Of a DNA stretch of 58,642 bases, positions 4,154-42,359 are shown piece after piece. A program made the translations under genes and the position numbers. A model generated the notes under the pieces. That model saw only the letters and a program-made list of their open reading frames with translations, searched no databases and was not told the DNA's origin. The stretch covers positions 1 to 58,642 of the forward strand of contig JAFGRD010000152.1 of assembly GCA_016935315.1 (NCBI GenBank), written 5' to 3'. The stretch is from Pirellulales bacterium. GTDB taxonomy: Bacteria > Planctomycetota > Planctomycetia > Pirellulales > Thermoguttaceae. Position 1 is the first letter of the stretch. Each line of letters opens with the position of its first letter.

Positions 4154-7100
4154 TCACCGACCGAACATGTTCGCCGGCAGCTCTCGGGCGGTCTCGGCCG
4201 CCGCCGCGCGGTTGCCGGTCGGCCGCTTATGCCCATCGGCCTCACTCCACTGGTAGAGCCACCCCGCTTCGTCCACGGCGACGTCGAGTACGGCCGTCGC
4301 GGTGGCGCCCTGGGCGTCGCTGACCGTTAGGGTGACTCGGTAAGCACCATGCTCGGCGAAGACGTGGCGAACGGCCCTCAGCCCGACGCCCGTGTCCTCA
4401 GGGCCGCCGTCGCCGAAGTCCCATGCGTAGCGGAGTACGTCGCCCTGGGAAAGCCCTTGATCCGGGTCGTCGGCGTGGGCACTGAAGTTAAACCATTGTC
4501 CGGGCTCGCCCGGGGCGTTGCCGAACAGATAATCGACGTAGGGTGCGGCGTTGACTCGCGTGAACGTCGCCGAGCGGCAATCGTCGATCGGCTCGCCGGC
4601 CGTGCCGTCGCCGTCCTGATCCATCGGGTTGCCCGCGGCGTCGAGAATGCCGGGCCCGATGGTCATGGTGTATTCACCCAGTGACGTCAGGCCGTCTGTC
4701 TGCACCCACAGCGTCCGGCGGTCGGCCGACCAATAGAAGCCCGCAATGTCACCTTCGGCTGCCGTCGGCCCCTGGAAGCCGACAACGTCCTCGGCCGTGC
4801 TGAAGCTGGCGGTGTCCATCGGCTCGTTGAAAGTGAACGCAACGACGCGGCGATCGCCGATAATCTCGCCGGCCGGTGTCGAGCGGATCACGGCGGGACC
4901 ACGTGTCTCCGAGCCGACTTGATGCAACAGCGCCGATGCGGGTACGGGCCGCTTGCGGGACTCCGTGCCCTCGAAGCTGACCGAGAGCTGCCCCTCGGCG
5001 GGATTGTTCATATTGCCGCAATACTTCAGTGTCAGCTCGTGATACCCGGCCTTCAAGGCGATCTGGCCCGACGGCTCGTCTGTCGGCCCGCTGCCTTCGA
5101 TGTCGTTGTCGACGACCAGCGTCGAACCGAGATAGAGCCGGCTGCGGCCGCCATAGGTATAGAACGTGTAAAGGTCGTCCCGGTCGACGTACACGTAGCC
5201 CGAGTAGATGTAGCCGAACTCGGCCTCATCGGGAAACGGATCGATGGCAAAGCCGTCATAGACGCCCCTGGCCGCCGGCGAAAGCGAGCCGAGCTGCTCG
5301 ACGCTGTCCAGCCCATCGGTTTCGGGATAGTAGCCAAAGACCAGCCCGGGCGTGAGGTCGGCCGGATTGTCCGGCGACCGCATGGCCACATGCAGCACGG
5401 CGTCGAGGTCGAGTCCCTGACCGCGGTGGCAGTTGTTTGCCTCGTCGTCCTCGGCAATCTCATCGTCGGCATCGACGACCATGCCGAGCCAGCCCCGGTG
5501 GTCGTCCCACGGGCTGGAGCCGGGCACCAACAGCGTCACCGTGTCGCTGTGGCTGTGGCCGGAATCGAGGCCGAACGCGAGACGATAGGAGTCGCCGCCA
5601 TCGGCCAGGCTCAACAGCGTGTCGTGGGTGGGATCGATCTCGGCGTCGTCGGAGACGTAGAACCGCACGCCGAACGGTCCAGCCTGGTTTGCCCCGGCGT
5701 TGAACACCGAGAAGCAGACCTCGACGGTCCCCGCCGCGTCGTGCAGATTGCCGGGGGTCACGTCCAAGGCCGCGCCCAGCAGGTCGTTCTCGCGCGCTAC
5801 GCCAATCGCAAACACGGCCGTGTAGGCAGCGGCCATGGCGTTGTAGCCGGTGGCGCCGTCGGTCACGTCGGGACCAATCGTCATGCGGTAGTTTCCGTCG
5901 GCCGATTGGGCGCCGAAAGTGATCGCCAACACGGCCTCGCTCAGCCAGTGGAAGCCCGTGATCCGGTCGGTCAGGTCGCCCGAGGGGCCCTCGAATGCGT
6001 CGATGTCGGCCAGGTTGAAGCTGTCGAAGTCCATCGGCTGGTCGAATATCAAGGTGACCGCCCGAACCGGCCCTGCCAGGCTGTAGGTCGGCTCGTGCGC
6101 AACGACCACCGGCGGATCGCCGCTCGCGGCGGGACTCTCCAAGACAATACGAGCGTCGGGCGTGCCGGTCACCGTGAGGTCGTCGATGTTCCATCCGTGG
6201 TCCACAACGGAGGCGTCGGTCGGGCCGATGCCGAAGCGAATCTGCACGTCCGGCTGCCCGTCGGCCACGGCGGAAAGGTCGACCGTTTGCTCGGTCCAGC
6301 TCGCGTCGCTGAGGTTTTCCTGACCGTTTTCCCACACGGTGGCCCACGTCTGTCCGCCGTCGCTGGAAACATCGATCGTGGCATGATCCCAACGGTTGTT
6401 TTCCACGCCCAGCCAGCGCCAGAAGCAGAGCGTCACGTCGGTGTGGTCCGTGCAGTCGATTGGCGGCGAGACGGCGTATTCCGCCCGGGCCATGTTGTTC
6501 GGATAGTCGCCGCCGAGACTGTGCCCGAGCACGTTGACGCCGGAGAACCCGCGCGAAGGATCGCCTTGCTGCCCGGCGGGCCGGCCGTGGGCCCATTGGC
6601 CCTGGAGCGTCCAGCCCGGGTCGGCCTCCATGTCGGCCCGGTAGAGGATGGCCCGGTCGTCGCCGAATCCCACGGGGATCGAGAAGCGAACGTCGATCAG
6701 GTCGTCGGTGTAGGTGCCGACGGCCATTTCCTGGCGGTCGCGCATGGTCGGCGCCAGCGTCAGCTCGTAGGCGCCCGCGGCGGTCTGCCGCTCGAAGAAG
6801 ACCTCCAGCGTCCAGAAATCTCGCCACTGGAACCCGGTAAGCCGGTCGCGCAGATCCACGCCGCCGGGCCCGATGAAACGGACCACGTCGTCCAGATCGA
6901 AATCGGTGCCGGCCATCGGCTCGGAGAATTCAACCCGGATCGAGCCCACGGGGACCGCCTGAAGTCCGGCGGGCTCCGCGCGAACCACGGCCGGCGGCTC
7001 GGCCAGCGGCAGGTAGGCCCTGGTTTCCGGATCGCCGAACAGGGTGCTGGAGTAAAATACCCAACGGCCCGTGCCGCTCTGGGAAGACCGGTCGATCTTG

Positions 7101-10100
7101 GCGTCGAAATGGGCCTCGCCCAGATGGAGCCGGTGTTCGGCAAACAGCGCGTCGAAGAATTCCCACGCCCACCAGTGGCTCCCGCCGGGGATTCCGCCCG
7201 GGCTGTACCAGCCGTAATGCGTGTTGAGGATCGCGGCCACGGCCGCCCCGTCGGCCTGCACGGTGTGCGCTTCGGCCATGCTCTCGTACTGAAACGCCCC
7301 GGAAAGGCAACCTTGCGAGTAGAACAAATAGGGATGCTCGTTGGTCAGCCGGGAGGGATCCGACGGGCTCAGCTTGGCGTTGCTGCCGGCGTTGGCGTGG
7401 CCGAGGTGGTGGACGAAATTCGGCTCGGCGTTGAGCGCGGCCATGACCTGGTCTCGGCCATAGGAGCCGTCGCGCTGATAGAGGACTTGCGCCGCGTAGT
7501 CTTCCGGCACGACGCCGCCGCAAATCGCATCGTTGGACGCGGCGCCCCAGGTGATCGGCTCGCTGTAGAGCTTCTCGCCCAGCCACAGGCCGGTGGTGGC
7601 GTTGGGCGGCGGTGTGGTCTCGTAGAGAATCGTCTTGCGCACAAACGTGGCGACCTCTTCGACGTTGCTGGCCGGCGCCCGGCCGACGTACACGTCGGGC
7701 ATTCGGTCCACGTCGCCGCCGCCGATCCCGTCGTTGTCCTGGGCCCAATCGACATCGTGCATGTCGTTGTACGGCCCGTCCAGGCAGGCGAAGTACATGT
7801 CGCTGAGAAACGTCTTGTCCTCGCCGTTGGCCTCCACGCGCACGTACCGATACGGGCTGCCGGCCACGTCGGTGTCGCCGCCGAGCAACACCCACTCGGT
7901 GTTCCAGACAAGGTACGCCTCGGCCAGAAACGCGCGGACCTTGCCGGCCAGGTCGTCCTCGGCGTCGTAGGGCGAATGGAAGTTGGCCTGGATGTACTCG
8001 GTCGTGACGACCGTCGCGTCGAGCCCGCGCGCGATCTTGTGCTCGACGAGCGGCTGGAATGCCCCGGCGAGCTCCTCAGGAGCGACCACGATGTACTCGT
8101 AGGGCCCGCCCGGCGGCAACGAACCCGAGGACGCCGATCCACCGGCCACAGCCGCCTTGCCGGCTGGAAACGTCTCGCCGTTGAAACGGGCGCTGCCAGC
8201 CAACAGGGCGCCGTACCTTCCGATCGCCGAATCGTTGTCTACCAGGTCCAGCGTCTGTCGCCAATCATCGTCGCACCGGCGAACGGGCAGAATCGCCGGC
8301 GGATCGACCACAGTCGTTGTCACGGTGACTTCGATCTCGTCGCAGAAGCTCACGGTCCCGCTGCCCGCCTCGAAGGCGACCGGAAACACTTGCAGCACGC
8401 CGATGCTGTATCCTCGCAGGAATTGGGTCTCGAACGTGACGCCCGAGCTGAAAGACTTTGTCGCCGTCTGGTCCGTGAAGTCGGGCTCCACGCCCGTAGG
8501 CGTGTCTGGCGGCGCGGCCGCGAGATCTGCGCCGGTGGCGATCACCTCGGGCGTGGCGGGCCGGACGGCGACCGAAGCGATTCGCGTGCCCGGCGGCAGC
8601 AGGATATGGGAGGTGCGGCTGGGCACGATCGGATCGCCGGGGATCAGCCACGGCGTCTCCCCTTCCAGCGATACCCAAGACCCGATCGTAGCCGGCAGCA
8701 ACTCGGGCGAACCGGCAAACCGATAGTGCAGCGTGGTCGTCCACCCGTCGGACGACCCAACGCGTGGCTCGGTCGCCGTTCCGCCTGACATGGAGGCCAT
8801 GCCCTTGTCGGCTTCCGCGGGCCCCATCGCCGCCGTATGGGCAAACGATGTCTCGCCGTTCCATCCGCTCCACCAGAACCGCTCGGGAAGCTCGGGCCCT
8901 GCCGGGGCCTTCAGCACGGCCGACTCGCTCGGATTGCCGTCCGGAAGCGGGGCCGGGCAGCCGGTGTCCGATGCGCCAGGTGCATCGGCGAAAACCTGCG
9001 GCGGCTCGGCCGCTGAGGGACCAAGGCCGGCGTCGACCGCCGGAGCGGTGATCAGCTTCAGGGCATTGAGAAAATGGGTCTGGTTGTTCCTCGCGATCAG
9101 CAGATCGGTTGCATCGACCCGCCCGTCGCGATTGTGGTCGTAGCGGAAATCGATCGGGGCCGGATCGAGGAACGTGCGCAGGTTGTTGCGGACCCGGAGC
9201 ATGTCGATCACGTTGACCCGCGCGTCGGCCGTGGCGTTGCCCGTATCGCCCACCGCGTTGCCGAAGTAGAAGACGTCGGCCTCGGGCAGCCCCGTGGTCG
9301 CCGTGGCCGAGATGGTCACCTGCAGCCACCGGTTCCGCACGGCGCCGTCGGCCCAGACCAGCGTGATGCGGTCGGAACCGCCGACCCCCGCGCCGGGCCG
9401 CACCGCGACGGCAACCGGATCGGCTGCGGGCTGCCAGACGCCCGGATCGGCGCTGTTGCCGACCTGGAACACAAAATCGGCGGTCTCCGGCACGCCGGCC
9501 AGGCCATAGACGTCGATCATCACGCCGTTGATTCCGCGGCCGTAGCTGGTGTAGTTGGCGAAAGTCGCCGTCTGGCCGGGCAGCAACGCGGCTTTATCGG
9601 GCGCCACGGCGACGTCGTCTTGCGAATTGGCGGCCGCGTCGCCGCCGTCGAAGATCGAGTTGTTGTAGAAGATGTAACGGCCGACGACCCCGGTTCGGTG
9701 CGTGCCGAAGTCGAGACCGGAGAGGTTCGCATTGGCGGCAAGATCGATCGTGTAGGCCCCGGCGCCTTCCGGCAGCGTTGATACATAGCCGGACGGCGGG
9801 AGTTGGCAGAGCCGATACGATCCCGGTTTCAGACCGGCAAAGCTGAAAACGCCCTGGGCATCGCTGGACGCAAGCGTCGTCCCGGTGTCGAACAAGTAGA
9901 CAGCACCCGCACCGGGGCCGGCCCTGTCGTCCAGCGCGGCACCCACCAGGACCTTATTGCCCAGCACGGCCAGGCAATCCCCAAACGCATCGTAGGCGCT
10001 CGGCTCCGATTTCCGAAACGTCCGCAACAGGCCGCCGTCCGAAGCGTCGAACAGATAGACGGCGCCCGCGTCACGAGTCCCCGTGTCGTCGTCCGGAGCG

Positions 10101-13100
10101 GCAACCAACACGTTGCCGCCCAGCACCGCAACGCGCCGGCCGAAGTGATCGCAGGCAGCGGGCGTCGGCTTCTGCAACGTTCGCAGCAGCTCTCCGGTGA
10201 CTGCGTCGAACAGATAGACGGCACCGGCGTCGGGGGCGGCCGTGTCGTCGTTGGGGGCACCCACCACGACGCGGCTCCCCGAAACGGCTATTACCCGCCC
10301 AAACTCGTCGGTTTCGGCGGGCATGGGATTGAAGAAGGTTTGCAGCAATCGGCCGGTCGTCAGGTCGAACAGATAGGCGGCACCGGCCCGCGAACCACCG
10401 ACGTCGGCGCCGGGGGCCCCGATCAGCACATTCTGGCCCATCACGGCCAGGCAGACGCCAAATGCCGCGTCTGCCGAAGGGACCGGAGCCCGGAAGGTCG
10501 CCAGTTGCCGGCCGGTTGCACCATCGAACAGATAGACGGCACCCGCATTCTCGGCGCCCGTGTCGTCGCCGGCCGCACCGACCAGCACGTTTCCGCCGAC
10601 GGCAAGCACCGAGCAGCCGAACAGGTCGGCCGCGTCCGGCGTGGGGTTGTGAAGCACTAGGCGCAGCTCGCCGGTCGTGCCGTCGAAACGGTAAACGCCT
10701 TCGTCGGCCGCCGCGTACGGCGGCTCCGCCGGCGCACCGACCAGCACGTCGTCGCCGATCGCCGCCACCGTATAGCCGAACCGCCCGGCCGACGCCGCGG
10801 CAGGATTTCGGAAGGTCTGCAGCAGGTCTCGCGTGTTTCCGTCGAACAGATAGGCAACGCCGGCGTTGCCGGCGCCGACCAGCACACAATCGCCCACCGC
10901 CGCCGCGGCGATGCCGAAAAGGCCGCCGGGATCCGGCGCCGGTTCCAGGAAGGTCCGCAACAACAGGCCCGTGTCGTCCAGGGACTGCAGTTGCACGGTC
11001 CAGCCCTCCACCGCCGGCTCGTTGGCGCCATGGGACCCGTCGACGTCGAGATCCTCGAACACCGAGCCGCGCAACGACGCGTGGTGCACCGGATTGACCA
11101 CCATCGAAACGACGACCTCGCTGGAGCCGGCGGCGCCGTCGAAGGCCTTGTAGGTAAACGAGTCGTTGCCGAGGAAGTCGGCGTCGGGCGTGTAGCAGAA
11201 CGCGCCGTCGGGCGTCAGCTCCAGCACGCCGTGGGCCGGCGCCCTGCCAAGCACGGCCGCCAGTGGGTCGCCTTCCGGGTCGCCGTCGTTGGCCAGCACG
11301 CCGGGCGCGGCGACCGAAAGCGAGCCGCCCTGGCTGGTGCCGTAGTCGTCGTCCAGCGACGCCGGCCCGTCGTTCACGCCCGCGACGGCTATCCGCACCG
11401 TGGCCACGTTGCCTTCGAGCAGTCCGTCGTCTGCCCGGTAGGTGAATTGGTCGGCGCCGTAGTAATCGGTCAGGGGTGTATAGAGAAACGCCCCGTCGGG
11501 CTGAAGCGTGAGGGTCCCATGCCGCGGACCGCTCAGCAGCCGGACGGTCAAGGGATCCCCGTCGGCGTCGTGGTCGTTGGCCAGCACGCCGGGCGCGGCG
11601 ACCGAGAGGACGCCGTCCTCGCTCGCGTCGTAGCGATCGTCCTCGGCCACGGGCCGCTGGTCCCGCACGTTGCCGAAATCCAGCCCGAGCACGGTGCCGT
11701 CGCTGAGAATGCTGATCAGATAGGTCCCACTGCCGCCCGGTGCCGTTTGTGCGAATCCGTCGGCCACGGCAAGCCGGACCCGGTAAGCCCCGAGTCGAAA
11801 CCCATGGAAGCGGTAATTGCCTTGGGCATCGCTGGGCACGCTGGCCAGCGTGGCGCCGCCGGCAGATTGCAGCTCGACGGTCCAGCCCTCCAGCAACGGC
11901 TCACCGGGGTCATAGAGCTCATCGCGGTCGAGATCCTCGAACACCACACCGCCAAAGGTCCCGTCGAAAGACCCGGCGACCTCGATCCAAACGGTGACCT
12001 CCTGCGATTCGTCCGTGCCGTCGGTGGTTCTGTACGTAAAACCGTCGAGACCGAAGAAGTCGGGCCGCGGCGTGTAGCGGAACGAGCCGTCGTCGCTGAG
12101 CTCGAGTATGCCGCTGAGCGGCGTTTCGACTACCGTGACCGAAAGGCGATCGCCCTCGCGATCCGCGTCATTGGCCAGAACGCCCGGGGCCGCCACGACC
12201 AGCACCTCGTCCTCCATGGCCGTGTAATGGTCGTCGGCGGCCGTGGGGGCGTCGTTGAGCGGATTGACCGTGACGTGGACGACGGCCGGTTCCGATTCGG
12301 CCCAGCCGTCGGTTGCCCGGTAGCTGAAGTGGTCCGTGCCGAAGAAGTCGGCGTCGGGGGTATAGGCCAACGAGCCGTCCGGACGCAGCACCAGGTGGCC
12401 GTGCGAGGGGCCATCGGCCAACAGCGCCTCGAGAGCGTCGCCGTCGAGGTCGCCGTCGTTGGCCAGCACGCCCGGCGCCGCGACCGAGAGCTGCGTGTCC
12501 TCGTCGGTCTCGTACTGGTCGTCGCCGGCCTGCGGCAACCCGTTCTCGACGCTGCCGAAGTCCAGGCCGAGCATGTCCTCCTGGTTGTCGATGGTGATCG
12601 TGTAGGCACCGTCGCCGCCGGGCAACGTGCGGACGAAGCCCGGGGGCACTTCGCCGCGGACCAGATACGTGCCGAACTCGAAACCGCTCAGCCAATACGA
12701 CCCGTCGGCGTCGGTGGTGGCCGTCAGTGCCTTGCCTGACCTGCCGCCGGCCGCCGGCAGGTCGCCATAGGCCGTGTCTACAGCCTTGCCGGTGCCGTCC
12801 AGGTATAGAAGCTGCACCGTCCATCCTCTCAGGCCCGGCTCGCCGGCGTCGCGGGTCCCATCACGATCGAGATCCTCGAAGGCCGTGCCGCCCAACAGGC
12901 CGTGATAGATCGGCGTGACGCGGATCGCGACCGTGGCCGGCTCCGATTCGACAATCCCATCGCCGGCTCGATACGCGAATGTGTCGGTACCGAAGAAGCC
13001 GGGCTCCGGCAGGTAGCTGAACGAGCCGTCGCCGTGCAACCCGAGCGCGCCGTGGGAAGGGCCCGCGATCAACCGCGCCGTCAGGCCGTCGCCGTCGAGA

Positions 13101-16100
13101 TCCGTATCGTTGGCCAGCACGCCGGGCGCGGCGACTTGCAGCGGGGCGTCGTCGTGGGCGGCGTAGTCGTCGTCGGCCGCCGAGGGCGGGTCGTTCGCCG
13201 ACGCGACGGCCAACGTAACCGTCGCCACGTCCGAATCGCTCCAGCCGTCGCTCGCCCGATAGGCAAATTGGTCGGTGCCGTTGAAGTGGGCATGGGGGAC
13301 ATAGAGGAACGACCCGTCCGGCTGCAACGCGAGCATTCCATGCCGCGGGCTCTCGACCACCATGGCGAGAAGCGGATCTCCGTTCCCGTCGCCGTCGTTG
13401 ACAAGGACTCCCAGCGAGGCCGGCACGGCAAGCGGCGTGTCCTCGAAGCCCCCGTAGGCGTCGTCGCCCGCCGTCGGCGGACTGTTTTCCGCCTGGCCGA
13501 AGTCGAGGTCGCCGATCTGCTCGTCGCCTGCCGTTGTGATCGTGTGGACACCGGTGCCGCCGGGCGCCGTGTGGACCTGGCCTTCGGGCAGCGGGACGCG
13601 GATTCGATACGTGCCGGGCTTGAACCCGGTGAAGTGATAGCTGCCGTCGGCGCCGGTGGTCGTGGCCGCGGTGCCGGGGCCGGCCGCAAACAGATACGCC
13701 GCCCGGCCGTATTGTGTGCCCACCAGTACGTTGTCGCCGACCGCCGCGACCGAAACGCCGAACCGGGCGTCGCGGTCCGGCCCGGGGGCGAGAAAGGTCT
13801 GAATGAGTTCCCCGCTCTCACCGTCGAAGAGGTAGGCCGCTCCGTTGCGGTCACCGGAGCCGTTGAATCGGGCCCCGATCAACACGTCATCGCCGACGCC
13901 GGCGACCGAAAAGCCGAATTCATCACCGGGGGCCGGCGACGGACCGAAGAACGTATGCCGCAGTAAGCCGGTCTCTCCGTCGAACAGATAGGCCGCCCCC
14001 GCGTCCTCGGCCGCCGTGTCGTCGCCCCGCGCCCCCACCAGCACGTTGCCACCCACCGCCGCAACGCTTCGGCCGAAGGCGTCGGACTCGCCGGGCGCGG
14101 GATTGACGAACGTTTGCAGCAGTTCGCCGGTAACGCCGTCGAACCGATAGACGACCCCGGAATCGGACTCGCCGGTGTCGTCGAGGCGGGCCCCGATCAA
14201 GATGTCCCGGCCCAAGGCCGCCACGCAATAGCCGAACTGATCGTCTTCCGACGGCGTGGGATTGCGGAACTGCAGCAGCAACTCGCCGGTGGCGCCGTCG
14301 AACAGGTAGGCGGCGCCGGCGTCCTCGGCGCCCGTGTCGTCGAATCGGGCCCCGATCAGCACGTTGTTTCCCACCGCGGCCACGGCACGGCCGAACTGGT
14401 CGTTCTCCCGCGGCGCCGGCGAAAAGAAGGTCAACAGCGCTTTGCCGGTGGCGGCGTCGAACAAATAGGCGACTCCGGCATCTTCGCCCGCCGCGTCGTC
14501 CCGGTAGGCCCCCACGAGCACGTTGTCGCCTACCGCGGCGACCGAGCGCCCGAAATGGTCGCCCCGATTCGGTGTGGGGTTGGCGAAGGTCCGCATCAGT
14601 TGGCCGGTGGTGCCGTCGAACAGATAGGCGGCGCCCGTGTCTTCGGCGCCCGTATCGGCATCGTAATCGCCCACCAGCACATCACGGCCCAGGGCGGCCA
14701 CGGCCCGCCCGAACTGGCCCGAGTCGTAGGTCGGATCCAGGAAGGTTTGCAGCCACTCGCCGCCGACAGATTCGAGCTCGACCGTCTGTCCTTCGATCGG
14801 AGACTCGCCGGAATCGTGAACGCCGTCCCGGTCGAGATCCTCAAACAGCGTGCCGCCCAGGCCGCCGTCGGAAACCGGCCGGACGTCGATCGCAACGACG
14901 GCCACGCTGGAGCCGGCAACCTGATCGTTGGACTTGTAGGTGAACAGGTCTGTGCCGAAGAAATCACCGTCGGGCGTGTACTCGAACGAGCCGTCGGCCC
15001 GCAGCGTCAGCCGCCCGTGGGAGGGAGCGGCAATCAGCGAGGCCGTCAGTGCATCGTGGTCGACGTCGGCGTCGTTGGCCATGACGCCGGGCGCCGGTAC
15101 CACCAGCATCGCGTCTTCATTGCCCAGATAGTGGTCGTCGGCCGCCGTCGGCACATCGTTGACCGGATCGACGACGAGAGTGACCCAGGCCTCGCCCGAA
15201 ACGTCCCAAGCGTCCCCGGCGCAATACGCAAACCGGTCGGTCCCGTGGAAGTCGGCGTCCGGTGTGTAGGCGAACGAGCCGTCGTGTTGCAGTTCCAAGG
15301 CCCCATGGGCGGGGCTGCTGATCAACAGAGCCGTCAGCAGATCGGTATGGGAGTCGCTGTCGTTCGCCAACAGCCCGAGCGGCGGCTGCACGGCGAGCGT
15401 GGTGTCTTCCAGCAGAGAAAACGTGTCGTCCGCGGCCGTGGGCGGCTCGTTCTCGACGATACCGAAGTCTCCGGCATGGATGGGTTGGCTCCCGACCACG
15501 GTGATCGCGTAGCCGTCGAGGTCGGCCGGAAACGTCTGGCCATAGCCGGGCGGCACAAGGACACCGATGCGATAGGCACCGAAGCAAAGGCCGCTGAACC
15601 CGTAAGTGCCCGTCGCGTCCGTCCGCGTCCTCAGCGGTTCTTCAAAGGCGTCGACCCGTTGCAGTTCGATTTCCCAGTCGGCCAACCCCGGCTCGCCCGC
15701 GTGGCGGGCGCCGTTGCGATCGAGATCCGCAAAGACCGTGCCGCTGAGCACGGCGTCGAAGACGGCAACCACCGTGATCTCCACTACGGCTTCGCTCGAG
15801 ACGCCCGCACCGTCGTCGGCACGGTAGGTGAAACGGTCGGAGCCAAAGAAACCGGGCTGGGGCGTATAGCCGAAGGAGCCGTTGGACCGCAGTTCGATGG
15901 TTCCATGGGCCGGACCGACGCCGAGCACGGCGGTCAAGGCGTCGAAGTCGATGTCCGTGTCGTTGGCCAGCACGCCCGAGGCCGGCACCCAGAGCGTGCC
16001 GTTTTGCCGGATCTGGTAATCGTCGCCGGCCGCCGTCGGCGCGTCGTTGACCGGGGTCACGGTAATCGTGACCATCGCCGCACTTGAATCGGTCAATCCG

Positions 16101-19100
16101 TCGCTCGCCCGGTACACAAAACGATCGGTCCCATGGAAGTTCATCTCGGGCGTGTAGACGAAGGAGCCGTCTGGCTGTAGCGCAAGCGATCCGTGCAGCG
16201 GCTCGCTCAGCAATTCGGCCGTCAGCGCATCGTGATCGCTGTCGTCGTCGTTGCCCAGCACGCCGGTCGCCGCCGCCGGCGAGAGCACCCCGTCTTCGGC
16301 AACGGAATACGCGTCATCCGCGGCAAGCGGCGCCTGGTTGGCCGCGTTGCCGAAATCGAGTTCCCAAACGCCGGAGTCGTTGGCCACCGTCACCGTGTGA
16401 CTTTGCGGTGGAGGATACGTCAGATCGAAGCCTTCGGCCGGCGTTTGGCGCACGACGTAGGTCCCCGGATGGAATCCGCTGAACGCGTAGGCGCCGTCGG
16501 GCCCGGAGGTCGCGCAGGCAGGCGCGTCCAACGTCGCGACCAGATGAGCGGCACCGGCGTCACGTCCGCCCGCGTCGTCGCCATAGGCCCCCACCAGCAC
16601 GCGTTCGCCCACGGCGGCCAAGGCGACGCCGAATCGATCGTCGGCGGCCGCCTGGGGCTTCGTGACCGTCTGTAGCAAGTGGCCCGTGGTCGGGTCGAAC
16701 AAATACGCAGCCCCGGCGTTGTCGCCCGCCGTATCGTCGCCATAGGCGCCCACCAGCAGATAGTCGCCCACCGCGGCAACCGCATAGCCGAAGCAGTCGT
16801 AGTCGGTCGGCGTCGGGTTGGAGAGCGTGTGCAGAAGGTTCCCGGTGGCGCCGTCGAACAGATAGGCGGCGCCGGCGCTGCTGGCCCCCGTGTCGTCGCC
16901 ATAGGCGCCCACCAGCAGGTTCCCGCCCACGGCGGCGACGGCACTACCGAATCGGTCGTAAGCCGCCGGCGCCGGGGGAAGCAGCGTGTACAGCAACGCC
17001 CCGGTCGTGCCGTCGAACAGATAGGCCGCTCCGGCGTCGATACCGCGGGTGTCGTCGCGATAAGCACCCACCAGGATCTTGTCGCCGACGGCCGCCAGGG
17101 CGCAGCCGAACGCATCGCCCTGGGCCGGCGTGGGGTTGAGAAACGTCCGCAGCAGCTCACCCGTGGCGGCGTCGAACAGATAGACGGTTCCCGTGTCGGT
17201 GCCGGCGTCGTCATCCTTCTCGGCGCCCACCAGCACGTAATCGCCCCAGGCCGCCACGCAGACGCCGAACCCGTCGCCGACCGTCGGACTGGGATCGAGA
17301 AACGTCTGCAGCAACCGCCCGTCATTGCCGTCGAACAAGAAAGCGGCCCCGGCGTCCTCCGCGGCCGTGTCGGCGTAGGGTGCGCCGACCAGCACGTTGC
17401 CGCCGACGGCCGCCAGGCACAGCCCGAAGTAGTCGCCTGTCGACGGCGCGGGACTGACGAACGTCTGAAGCAGGCTTCCGGTCGCCGCGTCGAACCGATA
17501 GACGGCCCCGGCCGCAGGGGCCGCCGTGTCGTCGGCAAAGGCGCCGATCAGCACGTCGTCGCCCAAGGCCGCCAGGCTGCTGCCGAAATACTGGTTGGCC
17601 CGTCCCCGCGGATTCGCGAACGTTTGCACCGGATCGCAGCCGAAACCTTGCAGCCGCACGGCCAGCCCTTCCAGCCCCGGCTCGCCCTGGTCGTGGACCC
17701 CGTTGCGATCGAGGTCCTCGAAGACCACGCCGCCGAGCCCGCCGTCGCAAACCGCGGCCACACCGATCACGACCCGGGCGACATTCGACCCCGACGACGC
17801 ATCCGCGGCGAGATAAGTGAAGCTGTCCGTGCCGAAGAAATCGTCATCCGGCTCGTAGACCAGCGAGCCGTCGGGCCGAAGTGTCAGCACCCCGTGCGAC
17901 GGCGCAACGATCAGCGAAGCCGTCAGGCTATCGCCGTCGACATCCCGATCGTTTGCCAAGACGCCCTCGGCCGCCGGCACCGTGAGCGTCGCGTCCTCGT
18001 CCACGCGGTACGCGTCGTCGGCCGCCGTCGGCGGGTCGTTCGCGGCGACAACCGTGATCGTCACCGTGGCCGTATCGGTGGTCGCGCCCGCGTCGTCGCC
18101 GATGCCGACAGCCTGACGGTTGAAGTCCACGGCACGGTAGCGGAAGCGGTCGACTCCAGAGAAATCAGGCAACGGCCGGTAAATCAGCGCCCCGTCCGGC
18201 TGCAACGTGAGCGAGCCGTGCAACGGGCCGCTCAGCAGCGATGCCGTCAGGACGTCGCCGTCGGCGTCGGAGTCGTTGGCCAACACACCGTCGGCCGCCG
18301 CGAGGAAGAGCATCGAATCCTCGCCGGCGCTGTAGCCGTCGTCGATGGCTGCGGGCGGTTCGTTGTCGGCCACGCCGAAGTCCAGCCCGAAAACGGCTTG
18401 GCCGGCAGCCACATCGACAAGGTATGGCAGACCGTCGCCGGGCAACGTCCGGACGCACCCCGGCAAGCCGGCCAGGCGGACTTGATATCGGCCGGGCTCG
18501 ATGCCGTCGAATAGGTAATCGCCATGGTCGTTCGTGGTCGCGATATCCGGTTCGGCCACGGAGCGAAAAAGATACGCGGATCCGGCGTTTTCGGCGCCCG
18601 AGTCGTCGTCGTCTGCCGCAACCAGCACGTGTTCGCCCACGGCCGCCACCGCGACGCCGAAATGGTCGTTCACCGCGGCCAGTGGCTTGCGGAACGTTTC
18701 CAGCACGTTGCCGGTGGCGGCGTCGAACAGGTAGGCGGCGCCGGCCCCGGGCGCCCCCAGGACGTCCGCTCGAGCCCCGACCAGCACATGCCGGCCAGCG
18801 GCCGCCACGCAATAGCCGAATTCCCCCGCGACCGTGGGCGCGGGGCTGAAGAACGTTTGCAGCAACTCGCCCGTCGCGCCGTCGAACAAGTAGGCGGCGC
18901 CGGCGTCTTCGGCACGCGCGTCGTCAAATCGGGCCCCGACCAGCACGTTGCCCTCGACGGCCGCCACGCTCCGGCCGAAGGCGTCGCCGGCTGCCGGCAT
19001 GGGATTGCAGAACGTTTGCAGTAACTCGCCGGTGGAAGCGTCAAAATGATAGACGACCCCCGCGTCGTCGGCGCCCGTATCGTCGTAGCGCGCCCCGACG

Positions 19101-19900
19101 AGCACGTCATTGCCGAGCGCCGCCACGCAATAGCCGAACTGGTCGTTCTCTTCCGGCGAGGGATGGAAGAACGTTTGCAGCAACTGGCCGGTGGAGGTGT
19201 CGAACAGATAGGCCGCCCCGGCGTCGACCTCCCCCGTGTCGTCGAATCGGGCCCCGACCAGCACGTTCTCACCCACCGCTGCCACCGACCGGCCGAACTG
19301 GTCGTTGTAGGCCGGTGTAGGGTTGAGGAACGTCTGCAACAGCGCGCCGGTGGAGCCATCGAACAGGTAGACGGCCCCCGAGCCGCCGTAGGCGCCGATC
19401 AGGACATTGCCGCCCAGGGCCGCCACCGACCGGCCGAACCGATCGTCGTCCGCCGGCGTCGGATCGAGGAAGGTCTGCAGCACCTGCCCCGTGGTGCCGT
19501 CCAGGAGATAAGCGGCCCCGGTGTCTTCGCCCAAGGTGTCATCGAGATAGGCGCCGATCAGCACGTTGTCGCCGACCGCGGCCAGCGACCGGCCGAACTG
19601 GTCGCTCTGACCGGGCGCGGGATTGTTGAACGTTCGCAGCACTTCGGCGGCGTGGCCAACCGGCCGGAGTTCCATGCCGAGGCCCGGCAGACCCGGCTCG
19701 CTCGGATCGCCAATGCCGTCCCGATCCAGATCATTGAAGACCGTTCCGGCAATCAGCCCGAGGGCGTCGAGCAGCATCCTCTGCTCGAGCGGCTCCACGG
19801 CAAGCTTCCGCAATCGAAGGCCGGCCGAAGGATGGGGCGGTCTGGCCGGGCCGGGAGCAGTCGGCATGCGATCGCGGCGGCGAGCACGTCGGGTCTTCAT
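4154..19900 (-). CDS. Giant LEPR-XLL protein: nested beta-propellers, cadherin-like repeats, dockerin, C25 peptidase
   Basis: A 5248-residue surface or secreted protein. The LEPR-XLL motif (VEPLEQRMLLDAL) lies near residues 35-47 after a basic N-terminus. Residues 50-3403 are seven super-repeats: a B-type module (FEDLDRDGxxDxGEPGLxGW ... GxYxFxGFxxGxYxV), each of the first six followed by two cadherin-like Big_9 repeats (PxAxDDxYxxxED ... VLANDxDxDxD). In modules 1, 2, 4 and 7 the B domain is split by seven FG-GAP-like blades. Residues 3404-3617 hold a planctomycete pre-dockerin module and a dockerin with two EF-hand-like loops. A gingipain-like C25 domain spans about 3930-4303, with a His in HHLGHANAG (His4168) and a Cys in SQGCLSG (Cys4198), the spacing expected of the family dyad. 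The tail has three Big_5-like domains, a jelly-roll, CARDB, PA14 (GLVFGYYP) and PKD (YAWDFGDG). There is no clear Shine-Dalgarno at the ATG, and no other plausible start near the motif. Substrate, ligand and role are unknown; adhesion plus proteolysis is an inference. Confidence 0.92.
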   Translation of the reverse strand: MKTRRARRRDRMPTAPGPARPPHPSAGLRLRKLAVEPLEQRMLLDALGLIAGTVFNDLDRDGIGDPSEPGLPGLGMELRPVGHAAEVLRTFNNPAPGQSDQFGRSLAAVGDNVLIGAYLDDTLGEDTGAAYLLDGTTGQVLQTFLDPTPADDDRFGRSVAALGGNVLIGAYGGSGAVYLFDGSTGALLQTFLNPTPAYNDQFGRSVAAVGENVLVGARFDDTGEVDAGAAYLFDTSTGQLLQTFFHPSPEENDQFGYCVAALGNDVLVGARYDDTGADDAGVVYHFDASTGELLQTFCNPMPAAGDAFGRSVAAVEGNVLVGARFDDARAEDAGAAYLFDGATGELLQTFFSPAPTVAGEFGYCVAAAGRHVLVGARADVLGAPGAGAAYLFDAATGNVLETFRKPLAAVNDHFGVAVAAVGEHVLVAADDDDSGAENAGSAYLFRSVAEPDIATTNDHGDYLFDGIEPGRYQVRLAGLPGCVRTLPGDGLPYLVDVAAGQAVFGLDFGVADNEPPAAIDDGYSAGEDSMLFLAAADGVLANDSDADGDVLTASLLSGPLHGSLTLQPDGALIYRPLPDFSGVDRFRYRAVDFNRQAVGIGDDAGATTDTATVTITVVAANDPPTAADDAYRVDEDATLTVPAAEGVLANDRDVDGDSLTASLIVAPSHGVLTLRPDGSLVYEPDDDFFGTDSFTYLAADASSGSNVARVVIGVAAVCDGGLGGVVFEDLDRNGVHDQGEPGLEGLAVRLQGFGCDPVQTFANPRGRANQYFGSSLAALGDDVLIGAFADDTAAPAAGAVYRFDAATGSLLQTFVSPAPSTGDYFGLCLAAVGGNVLVGAPYADTAAEDAGAAFLFDGNDGRLLQTFLDPSPTVGDGFGVCVAAWGDYVLVGAEKDDDAGTDTGTVYLFDAATGELLRTFLNPTPAQGDAFGCALAAVGDKILVGAYRDDTRGIDAGAAYLFDGTTGALLYTLLPPAPAAYDRFGSAVAAVGGNLLVGAYGDDTGASSAGAAYLFDGATGNLLHTLSNPTPTDYDCFGYAVAAVGDYLLVGAYGDDTAGDNAGAAYLFDPTTGHLLQTVTKPQAAADDRFGVALAAVGERVLVGAYGDDAGGRDAGAAHLVATLDAPACATSGPDGAYAFSGFHPGTYVVRQTPAEGFDLTYPPPQSHTVTVANDSGVWELDFGNAANQAPLAADDAYSVAEDGVLSPAAATGVLGNDDDSDHDALTAELLSEPLHGSLALQPDGSFVYTPEMNFHGTDRFVYRASDGLTDSSAAMVTITVTPVNDAPTAAGDDYQIRQNGTLWVPASGVLANDTDIDFDALTAVLGVGPAHGTIELRSNGSFGYTPQPGFFGSDRFTYRADDGAGVSSEAVVEITVVAVFDAVLSGTVFADLDRNGARHAGEPGLADWEIELQRVDAFEEPLRTRTDATGTYGFSGLCFGAYRIGVLVPPGYGQTFPADLDGYAITVVGSQPIHAGDFGIVENEPPTAADDTFSLLEDTTLAVQPPLGLLANDSDSHTDLLTALLISSPAHGALELQHDGSFAYTPDADFHGTDRFAYCAGDAWDVSGEAWVTLVVDPVNDVPTAADDHYLGNEDAMLVVPAPGVMANDADVDHDALTASLIAAPSHGRLTLRADGSFEYTPDGDFFGTDLFTYKSNDQVAGSSVAVVAIDVRPVSDGGLGGTLFEDLDRDGVHDSGESPIEGQTVELESVGGEWLQTFLDPTYDSGQFGRAVAALGRDVLVGDYDADTGAEDTGAAYLFDGTTGQLMRTFANPTPNRGDHFGRSVAAVGDNVLVGAYRDDAAGEDAGVAYLFDAATGKALLTFFSPAPRENDQFGRAVAAVGNNVLIGARFDDTGAEDAGAAYLFDGATGELLLQFRNPTPSEDDQFGYCVAALGRDILIGARLDDTGESDSGVVYRFDGVTGELLQTFVNPAPGESDAFGRSVAAVGGNVLVGARGDDTAAEDAGAAYLFDGETGLLRHTFFGPSPAPGDEFGFSVAGVGDDVLIGARFNGSGDRNGAAYLFDGESGELIQTFLAPGPDRDARFGVSVAAVGDNVLVGTQYGRAAYLFAAGPGTAATTTGADGSYHFTGFKPGTYRIRVPLPEGQVHTAPGGTGVHTITTAGDEQIGDLDFGQAENSPPTAGDDAYGGFEDTPLAVPASLGVLVNDGDGNGDPLLAMVVESPRHGMLALQPDGSFLYVPHAHFNGTDQFAYRASDGWSDSDVATVTLAVASANDPPSAADDDYAAHDDAPLQVAAPGVLANDTDLDGDGLTARLIAGPSHGALGLHGDGSFSYLPEPGFFGTDTFAYRAGDGIVESEPATVAIRVTPIYHGLLGGTAFEDLDRDGTRDAGEPGLRGWTVQLLYLDGTGKAVDTAYGDLPAAGGRSGKALTATTDADGSYWLSGFEFGTYLVRGEVPPGFVRTLPGGDGAYTITIDNQEDMLGLDFGSVENGLPQAGDDQYETDEDTQLSVAAPGVLANDGDLDGDALEALLADGPSHGHLVLRPDGSLAYTPDADFFGTDHFSYRATDGWAESEPAVVHVTVNPLNDAPTAADDHYTAMEDEVLVVAAPGVLANDADREGDRLSVTVVETPLSGILELSDDGSFRYTPRPDFFGLDGFTYRTTDGTDESQEVTVWIEVAGSFDGTFGGVVFEDLDRDELYDPGEPLLEGWTVELQSAGGATLASVPSDAQGNYRFHGFRLGAYRVRLAVADGFAQTAPGGSGTYLISILSDGTVLGLDFGNVRDQRPVAEDDRYDASEDGVLSVAAPGVLANDHDADGDPLTVRLLSGPRHGTLTLQPDGAFLYTPLTDYYGADQFTYRADDGLLEGNVATVRIAVAGVNDGPASLDDDYGTSQGGSLSVAAPGVLANDGDPEGDPLAAVLGRAPAHGVLELTPDGAFCYTPDADFLGNDSFTYKAFDGAAGSSEVVVSMVVNPVHHASLRGSVFEDLDVDGSHGANEPAVEGWTVQLQSLDDTGLLLRTFLEPAPDPGGLFGIAAAAVGDCVLVGAGNAGVAYLFDGNTRDLLQTFRNPAAASAGRFGYTVAAIGDDVLVGAPAEPPYAAADEGVYRFDGTTGELRLVLHNPTPDAADLFGCSVLAVGGNVLVGAAGDDTGAENAGAVYLFDGATGRQLATFRAPVPSADAAFGVCLAVMGQNVLIGAPGADVGGSRAGAAYLFDLTTGRLLQTFFNPMPAETDEFGRVIAVSGSRVVVGAPNDDTAAPDAGAVYLFDAVTGELLRTLQKPTPAACDHFGRRVAVLGGNVLVAAPDDDTGTRDAGAVYLFDASDGGLLRTFRKSEPSAYDAFGDCLAVLGNKVLVGAALDDRAGPGAGAVYLFDTGTTLASSDAQGVFSFAGLKPGSYRLCQLPPSGYVSTLPEGAGAYTIDLAANANLSGLDFGTHRTGVVGRYIFYNNSIFDGGDAAANSQDDVAVAPDKAALLPGQTATFANYTSYGRGINGVMIDVYGLAGVPETADFVFQVGNSADPGVWQPAADPVAVAVRPGAGVGGSDRITLVWADGAVRNRWLQVTISATATTGLPEADVFYFGNAVGDTGNATADARVNVIDMLRVRNNLRTFLDPAPIDFRYDHNRDGRVDATDLLIARNNQTHFLNALKLITAPAVDAGLGPSAAEPPQVFADAPGASDTGCPAPLPDGNPSESAVLKAPAGPELPERFWWSGWNGETSFAHTAAMGPAEADKGMASMSGGTATEPRVGSSDGWTTTLHYRFAGSPELLPATIGSWVSLEGETPWLIPGDPIVPSRTSHILLPPGTRIASVAVRPATPEVIATGADLAAAPPDTPTGVEPDFTDQTATKSFSSGVTFETQFLRGYSIGVLQVFPVAFEAGSGTVSFCDEIEVTVTTTVVDPPAILPVRRCDDDWRQTLDLVDNDSAIGRYGALLAGSARFNGETFPAGKAAVAGGSASSGSLPPGGPYEYIVVAPEELAGAFQPLVEHKIARGLDATVVTTEYIQANFHSPYDAEDDLAGKVRAFLAEAYLVWNTEWVLLGGDTDVAGSPYRYVRVEANGEDKTFLSDMYFACLDGPYNDMHDVDWAQDNDGIGGGDVDRMPDVYVGRAPASNVEEVATFVRKTILYETTPPPNATTGLWLGEKLYSEPITWGAASNDAICGGVVPEDYAAQVLYQRDGSYGRDQVMAALNAEPNFVHHLGHANAGSNAKLSPSDPSRLTNEHPYLFYSQGCLSGAFQYESMAEAHTVQADGAAVAAILNTHYGWYSPGGIPGGSHWWAWEFFDALFAEHRLHLGEAHFDAKIDRSSQSGTGRWVFYSSTLFGDPETRAYLPLAEPPAVVRAEPAGLQAVPVGSIRVEFSEPMAGTDFDLDDVVRFIGPGGVDLRDRLTGFQWRDFWTLEVFFERQTAAGAYELTLAPTMRDRQEMAVGTYTDDLIDVRFSIPVGFGDDRAILYRADMEADPGWTLQGQWAHGRPAGQQGDPSRGFSGVNVLGHSLGGDYPNNMARAEYAVSPPIDCTDHTDVTLCFWRWLGVENNRWDHATIDVSSDGGQTWATVWENGQENLSDASWTEQTVDLSAVADGQPDVQIRFGIGPTDASVVDHGWNIDDLTVTGTPDARIVLESPAASGDPPVVVAHEPTYSLAGPVRAVTLIFDQPMDFDSFNLADIDAFEGPSGDLTDRITGFHWLSEAVLAITFGAQSADGNYRMTIGPDVTDGATGYNAMAAAYTAVFAIGVARENDLLGAALDVTPGNLHDAAGTVEVCFSVFNAGANQAGPFGVRFYVSDDAEIDPTHDTLLSLADGGDSYRLAFGLDSGHSHSDTVTLLVPGSSPWDDHRGWLGMVVDADDEIAEDDEANNCHRGQGLDLDAVLHVAMRSPDNPADLTPGLVFGYYPETDGLDSVEQLGSLSPAARGVYDGFAIDPFPDEAEFGYIYSGYVYVDRDDLYTFYTYGGRSRLYLGSTLVVDNDIEGSGPTDEPSGQIALKAGYHELTLKYCGNMNNPAEGQLSVSFEGTESRKRPVPASALLHQVGSETRGPAVIRSTPAGEIIGDRRVVAFTFNEPMDTASFSTAEDVVGFQGPTAAEGDIAGFYWSADRRTLWVQTDGLTSLGEYTMTIGPGILDAAGNPMDQDGDGTAGEPIDDCRSATFTRVNAAPYVDYLFGNAPGEPGQWFNFSAHADDPDQGLSQGDVLRYAWDFGDGGPEDTGVGLRAVRHVFAEHGAYRVTLTVSDAQGATATAVLDVAVDEAGWLYQWSEADGHKRPTGNRAAAAETARELPANMFGR
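9040..9692 (-). repeat. Pre-dockerin plus dockerin module, copy 1 (within the 5248-residue protein)
   Basis: About 215 residues, from VVGRYIFYNNSIFDGG to FLNALKLI. It contains the string LLPGQTATFANYTSY, a GINGVMIDVYGL strand, VRPGAGVGGSDR and VFYFGNAVGDTGN. It closes with two Ca-loop/helix dockerin halves (ADARVNVIDMLRVRNN and NRDGRVDATDLLIARNN). A closely similar copy lies at 21427-22080 in the other giant gene, recognisable at DNA level too. Confidence 0.85.
9870..10965 (-). repeat. Propeller insert 4: seven FG-GAP-like blades
   Basis: Seven repeats from LRTFLEPAPDPGGLFG to LRTFRKSEPSAYDAFG, inserted in the seventh and last B-type module, between 'FEDLDVDGSHGANEPA' and 'GVFSFAGLKPGSYRL'. 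This is the most diverged of the four inserts: blade 1 is truncated and blade 3 lacks the LQTF start. Confidence 0.82.
13670..14755 (-). repeat. Propeller insert 3: seven FG-GAP-like blades
   Basis: Seven repeats from LQTFLDPTYDSGQFG to a final blade IQTFLAPGPDRDARFG, inserted in the fourth B-type module between 'FEDLDRDGVHDSGESP' and 'GSYHFTGFKPGTYRI'. The last blade is shorter and lacks the DDTG...DAGAA segment. Confidence 0.85.
16525..17630 (-). repeat. Propeller insert 2: seven FG-GAP-like blades
   Basis: Seven repeats, opening with VQTFANPRG and closing with a blade that begins LQTVTKPQAAADDRFG. They sit inside the second B-type module, between 'FEDLDRNGVHDQGEPG' and 'GAYAFSGFHPGTYVV'. 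Blades keep the FG...VAAVG...VLVGA...AGAAYLFD pattern. Confidence 0.85.
18545..19640 (-). repeat. Propeller insert 1: seven FG-GAP-like blades
   Basis: Seven consecutive repeats of about 50 residues with consensus LLQTFxNPTPAxxDxFGRSVAAVG, then NVLVGAxxDDTG and AGAAYLFDGxTG. Blade 2 is shortened by about eight residues. The run interrupts the first B-type module: the 'FNDLDRDGIGDPSEPG' half precedes it and the 'GDYLFDGIEPGRYQV' half follows it. Confidence 0.85.
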
Positions 19901-21194: not shown

Positions 21195-24100
21195 TCAACA
21201 GATCACCCCAGGCTTCGTCTCGTCCCAGGCTTCGTCGCCGGAAGCGGCCTGCCTGTCGCGACGGCCGGAATCGGCGAGCTCTTCGAATTCGTAGAGCCAC
21301 CCCCACTTCGACGCAAGGATCTCATTGCCGGCCGTTTCCCCCGCCCCGGTCGGCGACGATGGCCGAGTCGTTTCGTCCGCAGCAGCCGTTGCACCCTTTT
21401 CTACCGCGTCTTCTCCCGCATCCGGCACGGTGATCAGCCGCAACGCATTGAGGAAGTGGGTCTGGTTGTTGCGCGCCAGGAGCATGTCCGTGGCATTGAC
21501 CCGGGCGTCCCGATTGAAATCGTACGGGAAATCGAGTGGGGCGGGGTTGAGGAAGTTGCGAGGGTTGTTTCTTGCCAGTAGCATGTCGGTGGCGTTGATC
21601 CGGGCGTCGGCGGTCGAGTTGCCCGCTTCGCCCACCGCGTTGCCGAAGTAGAACACGTCCGGGTCGGCCAGGCCAATCTCGTCGGTGACCAGCACGGTTG
21701 CCTGTAGCCACTGCTTCGCGATGGCGTAATCCGCCCAGACGATCGTCACGCGGTCGGAGCCGTCCACGCCGTCGCCCGGCCGCACGGTGATGATCGTGGG
21801 CACGGCCGCCGCTTCCCAGGTACTCGGGTCGCTGCTGTTGCCCACACGGAACAGAAAGTCGTCGGTTCCCAGAACGGCCCCACCGGGCAAGCCCGCGATG
21901 TCAATCATCAGGCCGTTGATGCCGCGGAAGTAGCTGGTGTAGTTGGCCAGGGTAGCCGTCTGGCCGGGCAGAAGCGCTTCCTTGTCGGGGGCGATCGCGT
22001 TGTCGTCCAGCGCATTGGCTGCCGCGCTGTTCCCGTCGAACGCGGAGGTGTTGTAGAACACGTGCCGGCCCACCACTTCCGCCGAGGGCAACAGCGTCAC
22101 CTGGCCCGGAGTCGGCAGGAGGGCGTCCCAACTGGCGGGCGCGTTGCCCCAAGCATCGACCGCCGCACGATGGAGCGAGCTACCGCCCCCGTCGGCCTCG
22201 ACCGGCCAATCCCCGTCGCCAGCGTAGACGACTTCGTCCTCCCACAAGCGAGGAATGAAATCGGGATCGTCGGCCGGCGGCGCGTCGGGACGCTGTAGCT
22301 GGACACGCTCGCCAACGTCCCTGAGCTGCCCGGAATACCCGCCGACGAATCGCACGGAGGCATCCATCCCATAGTAGGTACGGAAGGCCGTCAGTTTGTC
22401 GGTGTCGCTGGGGTTGAAGGGCACAACGACGAGGACCGATCGCGGGCCCAGCAAGGTCCCGGCGGCAAAGTCGAAGTCGATTCCCTTGCGGATTCGCCAG
22501 TCGGTCAGGTCGGCCGTTTCGGCAGTGGGGTTGTAGATCTCGATGAATTCCAGGTCGTCGTCCAGATCGGTCGGATCGGGGTTGTAGTGGACCTCGCTGA
22601 TGATGACCGGCCCCACTCGGGGTTGGGAGTTCTCGCCGTCGGCCGGATTGAGCGTGCGTTGCTGCATCGGGCAGAGGTCGCCGCTTCCGTTCGGATAGCG
22701 TCCGAAGGACTCGCCGTTTTTCGCCGCGCCGAACTCGACGTGGTCGATGAACCGGACGAGCTTGCCGGACGCGTCGGCTCCCATCAGCCAGACATCGTCG
22801 CCGTGGGCGCCGTCCAGCGCGAAATCCTTGGGGCCGGGGGCAAGCGGCGTGGGGTTGAAATCGTCCTCGTCGAAGACGATGTATCCCTGGCTCGGGATCG
22901 TCGTGCCGTCGGAGATACGGAACTTCTTGTAGTCGCCGTTTTGCGGGTTCGAGTCCCATCCCCAGGAATCACTCAGATACCAGCCGCCGACATCGATTGC
23001 CGCGCCGGTCGTGTTGTGCAACTCGATCGCGTCGGCCAAGGGCACGTCGGTATGGCTGAGCACTTCGTTGATCACCACGCCGCCGACCGGTCCGTCGCCG
23101 ACCATGCCGGGCGAGCCGCCATATTCGCTGCTGGACCGCCAATGGTTGCCGTCTTCGAGGTATTCGGTTCGCAGCGGCTCGGTCGCGGGCACGGCCGCCG
23201 GATCGAGCAACTCCAGCGAAGCGCCTTTGCCGTCGGCCCGGCCGGGCCAGTCGCCCGAGTCGTTGTAGGCGAAGTCGAGGATCGGCTCGTCCGCCCAATC
23301 CAACAGCGTCAGCCCCTCGCCCGCATTGTCCAGTGTGCCTTCAAACTGCCCGGCGACGAGCTGTCCTGTGCCATAGCGGGCCGCAAACGCCGCCTGGTTG
23401 GCCACGACGACCAGAGACTGCTGCGGTGCAAGCTGGGTCACGTCGCTCCAGGCGAAATCGAAGGCGATTCCCCGATCGAACCGCGCGAACTTCAGATCGA
23501 TCGACTGGGAGCCAGTGTTCTGCAGCTCGACGAATTCGAAGTCGGCGGCGGTCCAGGCGGGGTCGATCAGTAGTTCTTCGTCGGTGGGATCGTACGGGTT
23601 GTAGTTGATCTCGCTGATCACCAGATTCTCGGCGCCGGCCGGCCGCACCACGTACTCGGCTTCGTTCAAGGCCGACCACCGGCCACCGCTGAGCACCCGG
23701 GCCTTGAGCACGCACGACTCGTTGAGCGGGATCGCGCCGCTGTAGATCCGAGCGTGGGCCGTGTTGACGGCGCCGCCGGGCAATCGCGGGTCGGAGCCGT
23801 CGACGGTGTAGTAGATCGTTCCGCCCTGGGCACTTATCGACAGCCAATAGCCCGGGGTTACCTCGCCGCCGCGAGGAACGCAGGTGGGGGCGGTGACGCT
23901 CGGGTAGAGACCGCGGGCTTTCAGTTGACTGAGCACGGTATTGGTGCGCTGTGGGAAGTAGCTGTTCAGCAAGCGGTTTGCCTCGGCCATCCAAGTGCCG
24001 TTGCGGGTGTAGGGGGTGCTGGCCACGCGGTTGTCGCCCCAACGCGCCGATTCGGCGACGATCGCCCGGTCGATCTCGTTGAGACGCTCCTGGTACATCG

Positions 24101-27845: not shown

Positions 27846-28082
27846 GATCCCCTCCCTTGTCCCGCGCGCAACCCTCCGAATGCCCCGCCGGCAAACGACT
27901 CCCCCGAAGTCAGAATCCGGCCAAGCAGGTGGGCCGGTGGGATTGACCATCCATTATGTCCGCTGGCGGCCCAAACCTCAAGTTTTTCGCGAGCGGATTC
28001 ACGTGAGGGCTTCCACGTGCTAGACTGGGGCCGTTGTGCCTGCCTTTGACCGAGTCGGTTTTGTCCCAGGAGGAAGACTTCC

Positions 28083-42140: not shown

Positions 42141-42359
42141 GTTGTGTTTCCCTACACATCTCTGCCCCGGATCCCACCTTTCCACACCCTGGTGGCGTGC
42201 GTGGCTTGGCACCGGGCGCAGAGGTCCGAAAGCGGGCGCGGCCTCGACATTCGTATCGGGGCACGGCGATGATAAATTGAGTAAAATGTAAGGATTATTC
42301 CGGTTCCTGCCGAAAGTAGCGATAATGCGAAGTTTGGGGAGTCGAACGGGAGATGGCTT

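Follow-up and report, generated by a model that had tools for sequence, protein, structure and literature searches.

Here we report a giant protein, encoded in a Pirellulales bacterium, in which four SdrD B-like domains are each opened at one loop by a run of seven FG-GAP-like repeats, and the run that was modelled within its host is predicted to form a closed propeller of the integrin type. The window, i.e. the whole stretch of DNA analysed here, comprises 58,642 nucleotides. A preliminary description of this DNA had proposed complete propellers nested within B-type domains, and the nesting of a complete propeller within one B-domain loop is supported by an AlphaFold2 model of the third split domain (module 3), by the mapping of the two host halves onto SdrD, and by the scores of the joined hosts. 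The explanation we favour for the whole, at a probability of roughly 0.6, is a rod of SdrD B-like domains that carries nested integrin-type rings as binding heads.

Layout of the giant protein and its split modules

The gene (19900..4154), like all of the features of the protein listed below, is on the minus strand; it encodes 5248 amino acids without inner stops, and the source genome is a draft of 7.1 Mb. The protein has a LEPR-XLL-like N-terminus (motif LEQRMLL at residue 38), which reached 13.5 bits with model NF012209, under its cut-off of 17, and ends with a PKD domain and a short tail. Pfam matches comprised SdrD_B, FG-GAP_2, cadherin/Big_9, a dockerin-like repeat, Peptidase_C25, CARDB, PA14 and PKD. 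The dockerin type I-like repeat (residues 3558–3602; 9095..9229) matched PF00404 with 26.7 bits (cut-off 22.9), and the gingipain-like peptidase domain of family C25 (residues 3936–4294; 7019..8095) matched PF01364 with 168.8 bits (cut-off 23; E = 2.7e-49). Within the peptidase domain, we picked out His 4168 and Cys 4198 by eye as candidate catalytic residues. Judging from the sequence together with the Pfam stretches, seven SdrD B-like domains, starting at residues 52, 723, 1387, 1682, 2337, 2650 and 2945, are interleaved with pairs of cadherin/Ig-like domains, and the protein is presumably a long rod, either secreted or surface-bound.

The first, second, fourth and seventh of the seven B domains are split by FG repeats in runs of 7, 7, 7 and 7, exactly as the preliminary description had it, with a repeat unit of 46–53 aa in all four runs. 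The repeats were assigned to FG-GAP_2 (PF14312), for which three parts of the chain scored 372.7, 174.8 and 145.2 bits (cut-off 23 bits), and the host to SdrD_B (PF17210). Module 1 comprises residues 49–513 (18362..19756), with the seven FG-GAP_2 blades of propeller 1 at residues 87–446 (18563..19642), and module 2 comprises residues 720–1188 (16337..17743), with the seven blades of propeller 2 at residues 757–1122 (16535..17632). The modelled module 3 extends over residues 1679–2139 (13484..14866), and its seven-bladed propeller 3, delimited from the repeats, the AlphaFold2 model and structural superposition, over residues 1716–2071 (13688..14755); module 4 occupies residues 2941–3402 (9695..11080), with the seven blades of propeller 4 at residues 2980–3338 (9887..10963). 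Together, the four split modules span 9695–19756; the range of 9870–19640 given for them earlier misses the second host half of module 4 and the first host half of module 1.

The split point is identical in all four modules and lies between the second host strand, whose consensus is VELQxxG, and the strand with the consensus GxYxF. The three sibling domains have no insert, namely the third (residues 1386–1490; 15431..15745; 48.0 bits), the fifth, whose loop at the split point is longer (residues 2336–2455; 12536..12895; 46.1 bits, in two stretches), and the sixth (residues 2649–2750; 11651..11956; 48.2 bits), so that the inserted state is indeed optional.

A neighbouring giant protein in the window (21195–27950, minus strand) combines lamin-tail domains with a CotH kinase domain, and domains of the lamin-tail type are likewise found in L040, L041 and L044, which have split modules. 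Two secretin-related proteins, one with a Secretin_N domain (180–3962, minus strand) and one with a Secretin domain (39120–42740, minus strand), are encoded in the same window as the giant surface protein.

Host domain and inserted ring

The profile of an alignment of 14 modules (A1) matched the SdrD chain 10ps in the PDB (E = 1.8e-12 for the whole chain). Profile columns 3–43, the first host half, aligned with residues 444–482 of this chain (15.4 bits), and columns 409–445, the second host half, with residues 481–517 (23.6 bits). Because both halves map to adjoining SdrD residues, the approximately 365 profile columns between them are inserted at a single point. A second B domain in 10ps gave the same mapping at weaker scores, with seven residues separating the halves. 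When the insert was removed, the hosts of modules 1 to 4 matched PF17210 in a single stretch each, with 48.7, 55.3, 62.7 and 48.4 bits (cut-off 29.7); the joined hosts thus scored 48.4–62.7 bits compared with 46.1–48.2 bits for the unsplit siblings. Taken separately, the host halves reached 22.3–29.3 bits with SdrD_B, below the cut-off of 29.7 (five of the eight halves, among the matches listed).

In the model of module 3, the first host half forms strands at residues 2–9 and 28–34, and the second half forms five strands within residues 409–460. This host part was predicted with less confidence than the ring (pLDDT of 70–93 in ten-residue blocks) and is barely probed by the fold search. From the homology to SdrD, together with the predicted strand pattern, we infer that the two host halves pair into one sandwich.

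For the insert of module 3, AlphaFold2, with A1 as the input alignment, confidently predicted the closed, seven-bladed ring that the preliminary description had expected (mean pLDDT 91.8, pTM 0.86, all residues at least 50). The constructs modelled were module 3 and a protein with a different split point (L141, see below), and the fold of the other rings is deduced from sequence; modules 1, 2 and 4 share 49–57% identity with module 3 in A1. The top PDB matches of the module 3 model in a Foldseek search were integrin alpha headpieces, and the rings also showed profile similarity to the integrin alpha-M, alpha-4 and alpha-L chains. Among the 50 matches listed, the ring superposed on integrin alpha propellers with Z values of 41.4–44.0 and an rmsd of 2.3–2.6 Å over 342–353 residues, and the alignments began at model residue 32–37 against the beginning of the integrin chain, without circular permutation. 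This superposition indicates that the modelled ring of module 3 is seven-bladed, closed and opened at the integrin's own chain position.

The borders of the four window runs point in the same direction. Each run has the LxTF strand, or a close variant of it, at the start of its first unit, and its last unit stops after the strand AYLF, the next turn and the LxTF strand being absent, which is the pattern expected if the run's own first strand closes the ring. As the sequence shows, along with the module 3 model, the outermost strand of a blade comes first in the insert and the third strand of blade seven comes last, so that the ring is self-closing and both chain ends exit together at the opened host loop.

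The rings share seven blades, fold and chain opening with the integrin alpha propeller. They differ in that the integrin has a DxDxDG-type loop and carries its propeller at the start of the chain, whereas the window rings are bacterial and nested in a host domain. A pattern search for the integrin calcium loop (D.[DN].[DN]G) found no match in any of the 98 blades of the 14 modules, which leaves an integrin-like metal-dependent binding unsupported. According to passages in PMC3192720, bacterial integrin-type propellers consist of seven repeats, sometimes in two tandem copies, and, unlike the window rings, have one calcium site per repeat. Passages of the same source describe no propeller inserted in another domain, and SdrD does not appear in its main text (PMC3192720).

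Within the blades, loops D-A and B-C are long and the remaining two turns are short (the strand naming is ours). The mean entropy, averaged by hand within strand limits that we drew, was about 2.5 bits on the long-loop face, about 2.0 bits on the short-turn face and 0.9–1.6 bits in the strands. The long-loop face is thus modestly more variable, which plain loop drift could explain.

Distribution and descent of the nested module

Split domains were mapped with separate profiles for the blade, the first host half and the second host half; the host profiles were built from the seven window domains, which distant hosts can escape. The examined loci contained 59 host pairs, of which 44 were bladeless, 14 enclosed seven blades and one enclosed eleven detected blades. 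Order and split point were alike in the 14 seven-blade copies, which include L034, where the second host half was only partly matched. Of the 15 host pairs that enclose blades, 14 therefore have seven, and the remaining pair has 11 blades by profile and 14 by eye. A count of 7 or 14 blades in all 15 mapped copies suggests that ring closure governs insertion and retention.

The search for other B-type domains split by FG-GAP repeats that had been proposed in the preliminary description was successful, both in other genes of the same genome and in relatives. The genome encodes ten such modules, inserted at the same early loop, in four genes: four in the window gene and six in three others, with three rings in L039. 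Among the candidates scored, the nested module was found only in the window's family, where it was present at the early loop in 5 of 101 genomes (at most 16 candidates scored per genome). The copies elsewhere are two in G015, two in G022 (one of them short at its end), one in G026 that is cut by the contig end, and the 14-blade copy in G447. Across the phylum, the matches listed for 392 genomes (up to four candidates scored in each) included no full nested module outside the family. Listed matches outside the own genome that reached both host halves, such as columns 25–431 in G295, gave no B half with the host profiles used here (L199). Among the best 80 of 212 relatives, a B half was located near blades only in L108, L109, L111 and L141; L178 has B halves that are distant from the blades. 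In L048/L191, propellers stand in line beside a B domain. Free propellers are common, and in the examined loci 104 of the 169 runs of at least three blades had exactly seven (overlapping loci and cut contigs counted). Since seven-blade runs are ordinary elsewhere, the novelty lies in the nesting.

In four proteins (the window protein, L039, L041 and L044), a split module directly follows the LEPR-XLL-like N-terminal motif. By eye, these proteins also end in similar short tails (4157–4300 in the window), with WLY or WMY and an Ala-rich, helix-like end. The tails are perhaps a sorting or anchoring signal that is the partner of the LEPR-XLL-like N-terminus.

The preliminary description had attributed the spread of the inserted state to duplication of the whole module. 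This part of its account was borne out insofar as the blades are, overall, homologous by position. For 37 of the 98 blades in the 14 modules, the closest blade of any other module sat at the same position, where 14 would be expected, and for 12 of the 98, where 6 would be expected, the closest blade of all belonged to the same module; none of 20,000 random register sets matched the observed total, and register 0 was the best in 36 of 91 module pairs. The positional homology points to descent of the modules from an already seven-bladed ring. Module 4 and L034 are uncertain cases; register 0 was the best in 1 of 13 pairs each, and their blade-position homology with the others is not clear.

The four window rings, by contrast, do not form a single clade (p = 0.003 in an AU test of the ring columns; 13 modules, L034 with its short host end excluded), and recent duplication within the gene was rejected as the source of the four discs. 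The rings rather look like old lineages that are common to several giant proteins. Module 4 had module 1 of L040 as its nearest row in the ring tree and the host tree alike, in keeping with duplication of a whole module. In a ring tree of 23 rows, modules 1 and 3 joined rings from other genes and another genus (98/98); in a tree of 13 rows, module 1 was outside that grouping and the rest had a support of 86/94. The early-loop rings require five changes on the 23-row tree and thus possibly have more than one source.

The host tree comprised 27 of the 59 host pairs, unsplit pairs with a short second half and any pair with a short first half having been dropped. It requires six changes of the split state, two of which are forced by starred branches, and on the host columns it is neither demonstrated nor firmly excluded that the split state arose only once (AU p = 0.07). 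One group (95/88) brought together three of the split window domains, the three unsplit ones and one further unsplit row, and this mixture hints that the ring was gained or lost inside this protein's line. Trees of the hosts of the 13 split modules had no starred branches and are too weak to be set against the ring trees (AU p = 0.14 and 0.25).

The 14-blade copy is encoded by L197 (3160–7215, minus strand), which belongs to the same family as the window and to a different genus. Its blades (aa 370–1139; FG-GAP-like, 14 by eye and 11 by profile) occupy the early B-domain loop, and the alignment revealed an extra block of about 380 residues before an ordinary seven-blade module; judging from the sequence, these seem to be two rings within one B-domain loop. 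In L141 (5719–10149, plus strand; aa 149–540), which is from a Planctomycetales bacterium, the blades (six by profile, seven by eye) break the B domain at a later loop, ahead of the final strand. The AlphaFold2 model of this construct (pLDDT 85.8, pTM 0.79, linkers of low confidence) contains a ring that matched integrin alpha chains with Z values of 34.6–36.1, and addition of the last strand to the host changed its SdrD_B score from 34.1 to 34.8 bits, a small gain. L141 is likely to represent a second host-loop site for a propeller. By eye, its next B domain has another long insert at the corresponding place (aa ~633–875).

In the cyanobacterial proteins L112 and L122, which have a TPS secretion domain, a CHAT domain and seven blades, the blades (aa 452–823 and aa 485–839, respectively) come after the TPS domain and are located between LLLDPK and a segment ending in LQANNDITV, in a region that we take to be a beta-helix. 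The two segments are close together in L215, a paralogue in the genome of L122; in L214, another paralogue in that genome, DUF5650 repeats directly precede the second segment, so that the downstream border is seen. L112 and L122 probably carry inserted propellers. Two giant proteins of the window's own genome, L042 and L043, have approximately seven FG-GAP_2 blades shortly before pre-peptidase C-terminal domains, in which the blades may be inserted.

Proposed function and its alternatives

A ring with adjacent ends would plug into a loop and leave the host undisturbed. The long loops of a propeller lie on one face. Since the chain is opened at the short C-D turn, the host would be expected to grip the other face, so that the long-loop face stays accessible, as it does in integrins; the disc would thus be held by its short-turn face, with the long, variable loops exposed. 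Discs of this kind, spaced out along the rod, would most likely serve to bind glycans, polypeptides or matrix as the heads of a protein that has a gingipain-like peptidase as well. We consider such a display of ligand-binding discs plausible. The binding heads are preferred also because of L034 (501–3761, minus strand), in which a Ser/Thr kinase domain, cut by the contig end, is followed by a hydrophobic/transmembrane segment (288–306), a proline-rich stretch and then a split B-propeller module; a laminin-G-like domain is present too. This receptor-like layout suits a sensor head.

The same layout weighs against the best of the competing explanations, which we regard as considerably less probable, namely that the propellers act as structural spacers, or associate with one another, and in this way make the rod thicker or cross-linked, without binding any outside ligand. 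Such a role would agree with the presence of similar discs several times per protein (three in L039, four in the window protein) and with unsplit siblings at equivalent places, where the disc is evidently dispensable, but the combination of kinase, transmembrane segment and proline-rich stretch in L034 is better explained by a sensor head. It is improbable that the propeller serves the peptidase or the rod, for instance by acting as substrate or as a regulatory exosite of the C25 domain; this domain is present in the window protein, but Pfam detected no peptidase in the split-module proteins L041, L044, L045, L046, L034 and L047 (of which L046, L034 and L047 begin or stop at a contig end) or in the scanned parts of L039 and L040. 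That the module is a string of beads, i.e. a free propeller flanked by two different short domains, would accommodate the scores of the separate window halves below the SdrD_B cut-off and the propellers that stand in line beside a B domain (L048/L191), but is very improbable in view of the single SdrD_B match of the joined halves, which equals that of the unsplit siblings, the mapping of the halves onto adjoining SdrD residues, and the constant order and split point in fourteen copies.

Rings nested in B-type domains thus remain our preferred reading, and they have counterparts in known systems. Prolyl oligopeptidase has a seven-bladed propeller nested in an alpha/beta hydrolase, where the disc gates the catalytic site; the window modules share the nested propeller, and their host is a stalk domain. 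SdrD (10ps) shares the host family with the window modules, but there the halves adjoin, without a propeller between them. The parts of the modules belong to known families, and propeller nesting is a known kind of event, as in prolyl oligopeptidase. Searches of the open-access literature found no paper on an FG-GAP propeller in an SdrD B-like or CnaB-type domain or in planctomycete giant proteins, or on FG-GAP with filamentous hemagglutinin in cyanobacteria. The integrin alpha I domain, according to a passage in PMC3192720, sits inside the propeller; nesting in an adhesion receptor is therefore shared with the window modules, and the arrangement is reversed, with the domain in the propeller.

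The nested modules offer protein engineers natural examples of the rigid display of discs on a rod. They are also candidates for integrin-like recognition heads in planctomycetes, in one case on a receptor-like kinase. More tentatively, and at somewhat less than even odds, SdrD B-like domains and other adhesin-like proteins may be general sockets into which closed propellers have been plugged repeatedly; the sites would be the early B loop (with one ring, or two in L197), the second B loop (L141) and the site in the TPS-secreted proteins of cyanobacteria (L112, L122), which is empty in the paralogue L215 and has another kind of repeat in L214. If this is true, it would mean a convergent disc-on-rod design that serves integrin-like recognition at bacterial surfaces.
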